A stretch of 64,000 nt of DNA from contig JARYMF010000004.1 of NCBI GenBank assembly GCA_029907255.1, positions 124,001 to 188,000 on the forward strand. The letters are read 5' to 3'. Origin of the DNA: Armatimonadota bacterium. Its GTDB lineage: Bacteria > Armatimonadota > UBA5829 > DTJY01. A program made the translations under genes and the position numbers. The notes beneath the pieces are model-generated. The model did no database searches. It was not told the origin of the DNA and worked only from the letters and a program-made list of their open reading frames with translations. The first letter of the stretch is position 1, and the number at the start of each line of letters is the position of its first letter. Shown in pieces: positions 26,260 to 36,451 of this stretch.

Positions 26260-27675
26260 CTACTGGGCGGCTGCATCAGCCTTGTGCAAAATCTTTTCTC
26301 GGTAGGCTTTGAAGTCAAAATTCGGGCTGTTCTTTGCATCATGACACTGCGTACATGATGACTGAAGCACTGCCCCAAAACCTTTTGCCGGCCTGCGAGT
26401 GTGGATAACGCCTGCGCCATGGCAAGCCTCACATTGAACACCCTGAAGCTGTGGAGTGGCATATTCACTCGTGAAACCGCCCTTCGACTTGTAGCCAGTG
26501 GTGTGGCAGCTTACACACTCGGGGTCTGTAGTGCGATTATCCTTCCTCAAACTTTGAAACGCTTTAGCATGTGCCGTTTTCAACCAGGAATCATATTCCG
26601 AGCGATGGCACTCACGGCATTTCAGCGCTCCCACAAACGGCCTCGGCTGTGACTGACCAACCTCTCCTGTTGAGGCCGATGCAGGAGATGAATATTGCGC
26701 CCGGAGACTAGCTATATAGGCTTCCCACTGCCTGTCGTGTTCTTCGATGACCTTAACCATCCTTGGGTCATCGGCCAGGTCAGAGGTTAAAGGAACATAC
26801 TCGCCCGCTGCATTTGCAATTTTCTTTTCCTGGTTAATATCAAGAACAAGCTTGCCAATGTGAGTTCCGGTGCTCTTGGCTTGCATTAAAACTGTAGAGC
26901 CGATGTTTTCAACCGAGGCGGCAGGCGATGAAGCTGTTTGGTGGCCAACCAGAATAACATCAATTCCAGGAATCTCAGTTGCAATGCGCTTGGCAAGGTC
27001 ATAACCGGTGTGGCTTAAAAGAACTACGAGGTCAACCTTCTTGCGCAGTTCGTCAACCTGTTTGCGCACAGCCTCCAAAGCATCGGTTATTTTCAGCTTT
27101 TCATTGCCAGGCAAAGCTCGGAATATGAGATTGTCGCCAACTACCGCCGTGATGCCTACTTTTAGACCTTCTTGAGTCTTTTTGACAATATAAGCCCTAT
27201 CAGCAAGCGGCTTGTTGCTACCTGCATCGAACGCGTTTACTGCTAATAAAGGAACATTCTTCCCATAAAGTTGCTTATTACCACATTCGGCAACGTACCT
27301 AGCCTCTGTCTCACCCATTGCAACGGCGTCGTAGCCCATATATGCCAGCGCCTCAGCATATGCGGCAGTCTTAATTTCAGCTTGCTTGCCTACTCCGACT
27401 ATTGCATCACCAGTATCCACTAAGATGAAAGAGCTGCCGGACTTCCGAAAATTTTCTAACCACGTTGCTCGTTTTGGAACCCCACCGAGGCTCTCTTTGT
27501 TGTGTCACCCACATGGGGCTTTAATATTCCCCTGGTCGTCGCCCGTGAATAGAATTGTGAGCTGATGTGGGCTAAATTTCTTTTCCGCAAAGGTAACAGA
27601 AGAAAATAACGCCAATCCAATAAACAAAACAGCAAGAAGCAACAAGATTCTCGGTTTTGCGATTTCTCGTTTCAT
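26260..27675 (-). CDS. Tetraheme cytochrome/5'-nucleotidase-like protein, probable selenoprotein (Sec at in-frame TGA 27507-27505)
   Basis: One frame runs from ATG 27675 to the stop at 26260 with a single in-frame TGA at codon 57. Read through, it gives a 471-residue exported protein. It has a signal peptide (residues 1-30), FTGDDQGNIKAPCG then U, HNKESLGG, and VDTGDAIVG. Degenerate 5'-nucleotidase/metallophosphatase motifs follow (AMGETEARY, LLSHTGYD, DVILVGHQT). The C-terminal cytochrome domain has CRECH (353), CVSCH (387), CEACH (415) and CTQCH (441). From memory, relatives carry a CGC motif where this has CG-TGA. An RNA hairpin suited to a bacterial SECIS lies exactly 11 nt after the TGA. 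The alternative is a nonsense mutation. The frame is otherwise intact, which favours selenocysteine. Confidence 0.72.
27477..27493 (-). promoter_or_regulatory. Candidate bacterial SECIS element
   Basis: On the minus strand, 11 bases after the in-frame TGA, GAGCCTC-GGT-GGGGTTC forms a seven-pair stem (two G-U) with a three-base GGU loop, 17 nt in all. The minimal functional E. coli fdhF SECIS is also a 17-nt upper stem-loop 11 nt after UGA, with GGU in its loop. SelB binds this part. Confidence 0.68.
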
Positions 27676-34057: not shown

Positions 34058-36451
34058 ATGCGTCTGAATAGAATCAATTTTTGTTATATAGGGATCCTCC
34101 TTTTATTGGTTGCAATCCCTGCTTTTGGATTAACAATCACCGGCAAAGTATTCGTGGATGTAGACGGCGATGGATTGGCCGGAGCGCAAGACATCCCCCT
34201 TGACAAGGTGGCCGTTTCCGATGGGCGGGAGGTAGTGCTAACCGATGGTTCGGGCAATTACACTCTGGAAACCGAAGGCGGCAGAATTGTGTTTGTGTCT
34301 CTTCCGAAAGGCTATCGACCTGCAAAGAGCTTTTTTAGCGAGGTTGGGAAAGTAAAGCGTATTGATTTCCCTATGGTTCCCTGGCCAGAATCCCTCTCAA
34401 AGACTCTGCGTTTCGTCCAAATTACCGATATTCATGTGAACAATGAAGAAACCGCCAAAACGTTTACCGAAGACATAGATGAAATCAACGCACTTACCCC
34501 AAAACCTGCTTTTGTAATCCTTACTGGGGATTTAGTTAATGTGGGTTCAAATATTGAGGAATACGAAAACTACGTACGCGCTCTCTCCCGATTTAAAATT
34601 CCCTTTTTTAATGTAATAGGAAATCACGATGCATGCAGGGGAGAGGACCGCCTGGCGAATTATCACAAATTCCTTGGCCCAGATTACTATTCGTTTAACG
34701 TTGGGGACTACCATATATTAGTCATAAATTGCCTAGACTTCGATGCAAATAATGTGCAGAAAGAGTGGATTGCAAAAGACTTGGCGGCTTCCCCCAAAGG
34801 AACGCGGCTAATCCTCGCCCAACATTTCTGGCCCAGCCGTGAGCAACTAAAATATTTCGCAAGCCTCGGAGGACTCCTCATTGTCTCAGGACACTGGCAC
34901 GGAAATCGAGTAAGCAACGGAAATGGGATACTCGACCTTAACACACCACCGCTCAGGTTTGGAGGGATTGACCGCAATGCCCGCGGTTTCAGAATAATAG
35001 AGATTTCTGGCGAAGAGGCATCAAGCGAACTAAGACTCGCAGGTTTTAGCGAGAATGTTACCGTGGTAAGTCCGGCTGGATATTCCTTTGCCCCAAAAGG
35101 CAACCTAAAGCTGTTAGTAAATGCATATGACACGCGTTCAAAAATTGCAAAAGTCGAATGCGAAGTAGGCAAACGAAAAACTTCGCTAAAACCAGCCGGC
35201 AGTTGGAGCTGGGTGGGCGAGATCAAAGTAGACTCTCAGTCCAGCGATGCTCAAAAGCTTATTGCCACTGTAACTGACATAAGCGGCCGGACGTGGAAAA
35301 CTGAATCCACATTTCAAGCAGTGGATAATATGCCCTCCATCATAACAGGAGCAGATTGGCCTCAATTCCATGGCGACCACCACCATCTTGGTAGCTCTCC
35401 CGACCGCGTTTGTCCACCTTTGAGATTAGCATGGGCGACGCATGCGGGAGGATTCATCGGAATATCATCTCCAGTGGTTGGGGAGGGCTTAGTTTTTGTG
35501 GGCACCAACGATCTTGGCAATTTAAAAGACTGCGGCGTTTATGCATTCGATGCTAAAAGTGGAAAACTTAGATGGCGCTTTAAAACCGATAGCGCAGTCA
35601 AGAATTCGGTTGCATTCTCCAAAGGCCGAGTATTTGCCATAAGCGTAACGGGTTACCTATACTCTCTTGATGCACAAAATGGGAGGCTTTTGTGGAAGCA
35701 GGGATTGAGAGCTGAAAACGAACGATGGGAAATCGCCGCTCCTGTAGTGTTCGCTAATGTGGTCTATGCGGGTGGAACAACTTACTTGGCAGCATTCAAA
35801 GCTGACAGTGGGGAGCGGCTTTGGGAGGTGGACCTAGGCGGCCATGATTGGTGGCCAAGTTGTCCACTTACGCCAATGATTTCGGGTAGCCAATTAATTA
35901 TTACGTCGCGCACTGGAGCATTTGGAATAGACCGAAAGACGGGCAAAAAAATCTGGGAACTGGACGGCAATTTTCGGGGTTGCTCAGCAGTCGGGGAATT
36001 CATCTACGCTATACGAAACGGATTTCCTGTTGCAATCAACCCCATAGATGGAAAAACCGTTTGGGAAAGCACTGAAAAACTCGGCGACAGTGCATCAACA
36101 CCTGCAATCTCGGGAGAAACAATGGTCGTCGGTGATGCAGATGGACGCATATGTGCTTTCTCTACAAAGGATGGAAAGCTTCTTTGGACCTTCCAAACAG
36201 GCCCAAGTGTTTCTTCCCTCCAGCCATACAAGCGAGGCGGCAGCGATGTCAACTCCTCACCTGCCATTTCTGGCAACACAGTGTACATTGGCGCAAGTGA
36301 CGGCAAACTGTATGCCTTGTCGCTTACAAGTGGTGAGGAACTTTGGAGCCACAACCTTGGTGTTCCAATTGCATCCTCGCCGGCTATTTCGGGAAATGCG
36401 GTCTATGTCGGCGCCTATGATGGAAATGTTTACGCATTCATAGGGCAATAA
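34058..36451 (+). CDS. Exported calcineurin-like phosphoesterase fused to a PQQ-type beta-propeller
   Basis: The 797-residue product follows GAGGAGG and has a signal peptide (LLLLVAIPAFG). The first domain (TITGKVFVDVDGDGLAGAQ...) is the Ig-like N-terminal calcineurin module. The phosphoesterase domain (about 105-330) holds the dimetal motifs ITDIHVN (DxH), LTGDLVN (GD), VIGNHDA (GNHD), a late AQHFWP and SGHWHGN (GHxH). A beta-sandwich follows. From about residue 430 there are six to seven propeller blades with repeated YAFDAKSGKLRW, YSLDAQNGRLLWK and YALSLTSGEELW. Propeller plus phosphoesterase fusions are rare; I infer surface or periplasmic glycan or nucleotide chemistry, with no proven substrate. 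Confidence 0.88.
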   Translation: MRLNRINFCYIGILLLLVAIPAFGLTITGKVFVDVDGDGLAGAQDIPLDKVAVSDGREVVLTDGSGNYTLETEGGRIVFVSLPKGYRPAKSFFSEVGKVKRIDFPMVPWPESLSKTLRFVQITDIHVNNEETAKTFTEDIDEINALTPKPAFVILTGDLVNVGSNIEEYENYVRALSRFKIPFFNVIGNHDACRGEDRLANYHKFLGPDYYSFNVGDYHILVINCLDFDANNVQKEWIAKDLAASPKGTRLILAQHFWPSREQLKYFASLGGLLIVSGHWHGNRVSNGNGILDLNTPPLRFGGIDRNARGFRIIEISGEEASSELRLAGFSENVTVVSPAGYSFAPKGNLKLLVNAYDTRSKIAKVECEVGKRKTSLKPAGSWSWVGEIKVDSQSSDAQKLIATVTDISGRTWKTESTFQAVDNMPSIITGADWPQFHGDHHHLGSSPDRVCPPLRLAWATHAGGFIGISSPVVGEGLVFVGTNDLGNLKDCGVYAFDAKSGKLRWRFKTDSAVKNSVAFSKGRVFAISVTGYLYSLDAQNGRLLWKQGLRAENERWEIAAPVVFANVVYAGGTTYLAAFKADSGERLWEVDLGGHDWWPSCPLTPMISGSQLIITSRTGAFGIDRKTGKKIWELDGNFRGCSAVGEFIYAIRNGFPVAINPIDGKTVWESTEKLGDSASTPAISGETMVVGDADGRICAFSTKDGKLLWTFQTGPSVSSLQPYKRGGSDVNSSPAISGNTVYIGASDGKLYALSLTSGEELWSHNLGVPIASSPAISGNAVYVGAYDGNVYAFIGQ

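Follow-up and report, generated by a model that had tools for sequence, protein, structure and literature searches.

A UGA codon in a tetraheme UshA-like protein gene of an Armatimonadota bacterium: a very well supported selenocysteine in a known family

Does the in-frame TGA that interrupts a gene at positions 26260-27675 of an Armatimonadota contig encode selenocysteine, or does it end a protein? The window analysed here is the whole 64,000-nucleotide stretch of that contig, and a sequence-only reading of it had described an otherwise intact gene with one internal TGA. The interrupted gene is real, with 471 codons and a single TGA in the context described; the strand, which that reading did not give, is the minus strand. 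There the frame runs from an ATG at 27675 to a terminal stop at 26260, with exactly one in-frame TGA, which would be the one Sec among its 471 codons. The plus strand of the same interval translates to many stops and no gene. The TGA is codon 57 (27507-27505), in the context FTGDDQGNIKAPCG-U-HNKESLGGVPKRA, and the motif around it reads APCG-U-HNKESLGG. Upstream of this motif, residues 1 to about 31 (27583-27675, ending in SSVTFA) resemble a Sec-pathway signal peptide, with a predicted helix at residues 8-25, consistent with the earlier suggestion that this UshA-like tetraheme protein is exported.

A standard ORF finder, for which TGA is a stop, returns only the downstream piece, 386 amino acids at 26260-27420, which has neither the signal peptide nor the motif. 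Ordinary annotation would drop the first ~85 residues of the protein, the signal peptide and active motif among them. One could take the 386-residue frame at face value and envision two genes, a short exported peptide that ends at the UGA and a cytochrome that starts from an internal GTG (27420). Such a cytochrome would begin without a signal peptide, yet its c-type heme domain must be exported, and both the family models and the Cys-containing relatives are continuous across codon 57. We consider the two-gene arrangement very improbable.

Our analysis indicates that the UGA-containing gene almost certainly encodes a real selenoprotein, a member of the UshA-like PCGU family already known as NF041198. 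The whole protein matches this model (UshA_like_PCGU, 'UshA-like (seleno)protein') at 276.8 bits, barely above the cut-off of 275, and it carries the PCG[U/C] motif of the family as APCGU, with codon 57 as TGA. PF00149 matches residues 40-246, PF13435 matches residues 352-420, and four CXXCH heme-binding motifs are present at residues 353-357, 387-391, 415-419 and 441-445 (26338-26619). The NF041198 and PF00149 matches and the four heme motifs bear out the description of a tetraheme, 5'-nucleotidase-like protein, whose C-terminal domain is of the cytochrome c554 type. The C-terminal region of the NF041198 model (about 350-519) scores 131.9 bits and covers the cytochrome tail; because the model spans the cytochrome region, the fusion of nucleotidase and cytochrome belongs to the known family. 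In common with that family, the protein has the PCGU/PCGC motif, an N-terminal domain of nucleotidase fold and a cytochrome region at the C-terminus, and nothing essential differs, the middle of the model (about 276-349) being unaligned in the whole-genome search.

The proposal that this is a new, unlisted selenoprotein does not hold. The family is already known, since it has a curated model whose cut-off the protein passes and is listed in PMC2398784, PMC9312934 and PMC13188914. In the portion of PMC2398784 consulted, an UshA-like family of COG0737 with a CxU motif is tabulated as early as the 2008 GOS selenoproteome; the protein described here is likewise of COG0737 type with a CxU motif, whereas that portion mentions no cytochrome domain. 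The other two sources also tabulate the UshA-like CxU family. NF049981, UshA-like selenoprotein family 2, has the same fold, but the match is partial and its score of 68.6 bits falls short of the cut-off of 140; its motif is given as CxxU (PMC13188914), unlike the CGU here. What the present gene contributes is a well-documented lineage added to a listed selenoprotein family.

The sequence-only reading had named as checks an alignment of homologues, recurrence of the TGA in related genomes, and a search for selA, selB, selC and selD. In the alignment of relatives, the codon-57 column is Cys or TGA throughout: TGA in 12 of 35 rows and Cys (TGC or TGT) in the other 23. Rows of one alignment (A4) were chosen with the Cx[C/U] pattern, and the invariance of that motif within it is partly selected; without the filter, relatives outside the CGC pattern carry CNC, CRC or CEC, and the column is still Cys. 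The 12 TGA rows come from nine genomes, one of which, from the same genus, holds an orthologue that is 97% identical and retains the TGA. Between the two orthologues, we count 55 synonymous and 11 non-synonymous codon differences downstream of the TGA (four and two, respectively, upstream); with this synonymous excess, the downstream part is evidently under purifying selection. These comparisons exclude chance as the source of the interrupted frame, because motifs on both sides of the TGA fall in one family model, the 97%-identical orthologue has the TGA, synonymous changes are in excess downstream, and the column is confined to Cys and TGA.

The same evidence bears on whether the TGA could come from a sequencing error, or from a nonsense mutation that arose recently in a pseudogene with an ancestral Cys codon. 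TGA is one base from TGC and TGT, and many relatives do have Cys. That TGA occupies this column in 12 rows, drawn from nine genomes, refutes this explanation in practice; the same-genus orthologue shares the TGA, coding constraint persists downstream of it, and three genomes without Sec machinery (G004, G012 and G085) all have Cys at this position. We regard error or decay as a highly improbable account of the locus. Selenocysteine is the reading to which the relatives point.

Bacterial selenocysteine insertion also calls attention to the mRNA just downstream of the UGA. There we identify a putative SECIS hairpin, GAGCCUC-GGU-GGGGUUC (27477-27493), which starts 11 nt after the UGA and places its apical GGU 18 nt after it; the gene thus shows, in an apical GGU on a covarying stem, the SECIS feature of an apical GU shortly after the UGA. 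The single-sequence folding energy of the hairpin is no better than that of shuffled sequences, and the case for a SECIS element therefore rests on comparison with TGA-containing relatives. In the gene's own branch, three sequences preserve all seven pairs, two of them through compensatory changes, and 53 of 500 shuffles do equally well, a weak test given that three sequences are few. A second branch has a 7-bp stem around GGUCUU with three compensatory cells, a value that only 4 of 500 shuffles reach. Sliding-partner controls destroy the pairing in both branches.

The source genome (3.23 Mb, 99.7% complete) encodes the full machinery for selenocysteine, all four sel genes being present. The tRNA-Sec has the anticodon TCA and scores 69.4 bits; a second match above the same cut-off is a normal tRNA-Ser. 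SelB scores 403.8 bits, SelD 386.9 bits and SelA 598.6 bits, and on contig C11 SelA is encoded near the tRNA-Sec. The SelD gene is itself interrupted by an in-frame TGA, in LLTHGGGUACK (L018:1531-1533; G000:C4 about 193351), ~5.4 kb past the end of the window; this is the position at which SelD selenoproteins usually have Sec. Across the nine genomes with the TGA version of the gene, tRNA-Sec is present in every one, always at 69 bits or more, and SelB is above its cut-off in eight; the ninth, G056, is a fragmented assembly. Among the genomes without the machinery, G004 and G012 are close relatives. Sec machinery is also found in about half of the genomes that have only Cys versions, and thus Cys at this position does not require loss of the machinery.

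Taken together, selenocysteine at codon 57 is very well supported by comparison, because the machinery is present, the TGA is conserved, the column alternates between Cys and TGA, the hairpin covaries, and tRNA-Sec occurs in all nine TGA genomes. The earlier assignment of Sec in a CGU motif, with Cys as its alternative, is upheld by the relatives and the sel genes. The UGA would be decoded as Sec by the genome's own SelA, SelB, SelC and SelD, directed by the SECIS hairpin within the gene.

What might the selenocysteine do? The predicted structure (mean pLDDT 84.6) has an N-terminal domain, about residues 40-246 (26938-27558), of the calcineurin-like phosphoesterase type that matches 5'-nucleotidases, including UshA, CD73 and 3ivd; the loop with codon 57 is of low confidence in the model. 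A metallophosphatase-like fold, as first suggested, is indeed present, but over the family as a whole it has lost most of its metal ligands. The di-metal ligand set of UshA and CD73 (D-x-H, GD, GNH, H, GHxH) is not retained here: D-x-H is D-D-Q, GNHE is GETE and GHxH is GHQT. Of 34 relatives, three retain the His of D-x-H; the GNH motif has disappeared, whereas the four CXXCH motifs and His369 and His425 are invariant or nearly so. Relative to SoxB, UshA and CD73, with which it shares the N-terminal domain by fold or sequence, this family has largely lost the metal ligands and added Cx[C/U] and four hemes. ExtKL (NF040886) and MccSep are, like this protein, c-type multiheme selenoproteins; their match is weak and confined to heme-region residues, leaving the nucleotidase part unmatched.

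Because the phosphoesterase ligands are degenerate while the Cx[C/U] motif and the four CXXCH hemes are invariant, we favor redox chemistry at Cys55 and Sec57. The motif looks redox-active, and we hold a redox mechanism about evenly probable. The exported protein may be an extracytoplasmic oxidoreductase in which two-electron redox chemistry on a substrate would take place at the Cys55/Sec57 pair, in a loop of the decayed 5'-nucleotidase fold, with the fused tetraheme domain passing electrons to or from the pair. Alternatively, the protein could be a selenoprotein that still works as a metallophosphoesterase, with Cys55 and Sec57 binding metal or regulating the enzyme rather than serving in redox catalysis. 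The nucleotidase fold, the retention of Asp46, Asp90, His222 and His245 from the classic sites, and a PstS-like binding protein encoded upstream on the same strand would all fit such an enzyme. Against it, this protein has Gln in place of the His of D-x-H and GETE in place of GNHE, and only 10 of 34 relatives retain His222, the same number retaining His245, whereas the hemes are invariant; we judge this role unlikely. A 5'-nucleotidase fold that lost its metal site and took on selenol/thiol redox catalysis, coupled to a tetraheme domain, is a proposal we would weigh equally for and against. If correct, the family has put a phosphoesterase fold to new use in extracytoplasmic electron transfer, with repeated exchange between Sec and Cys. 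We found no paper giving a biochemical function for the UshA-like (seleno)protein family.

The tree requires nine changes in the Sec/Cys column, at least seven of which are imposed by well-supported branches. One exchange is recent: a paralogue in the source genome (L048:2179-3561; G000:C8:126193-127548) has TGA where its same-genus counterpart (L050:2546-3928) reads TGC and retains an intact hairpin. This near-identical pair from two species of one genus offers a natural experiment well suited to the study of Sec/Cys exchange. Tandem copies of the family occur in two genomes (L065 and L059), each copy with its own in-frame TGA. The CNC subgroup (L081, L083, L085, L087, L088, L089, L092, L093 and L097) is otherwise tetraheme and UshA-like, and no Sec was seen in it.

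Gene neighbours indicate no function: besides the upstream PstS-like gene, a GH4-family enzyme is encoded downstream on the opposite strand, and no conserved neighbour points to a substrate. Neighbours differ among relatives; by eye, the paralogue and the G004 gene both seem to have an M48-type peptidase-like protein encoded next after them. A scan of the genome's contigs returned only distant nucleotidases, and no other in-frame TGA in the window is comparable by frame, base composition and hairpin. Elsewhere in the window, the plus strand at 34058-36451 encodes a metallophosphoesterase fused to a PQQ-type beta-propeller.
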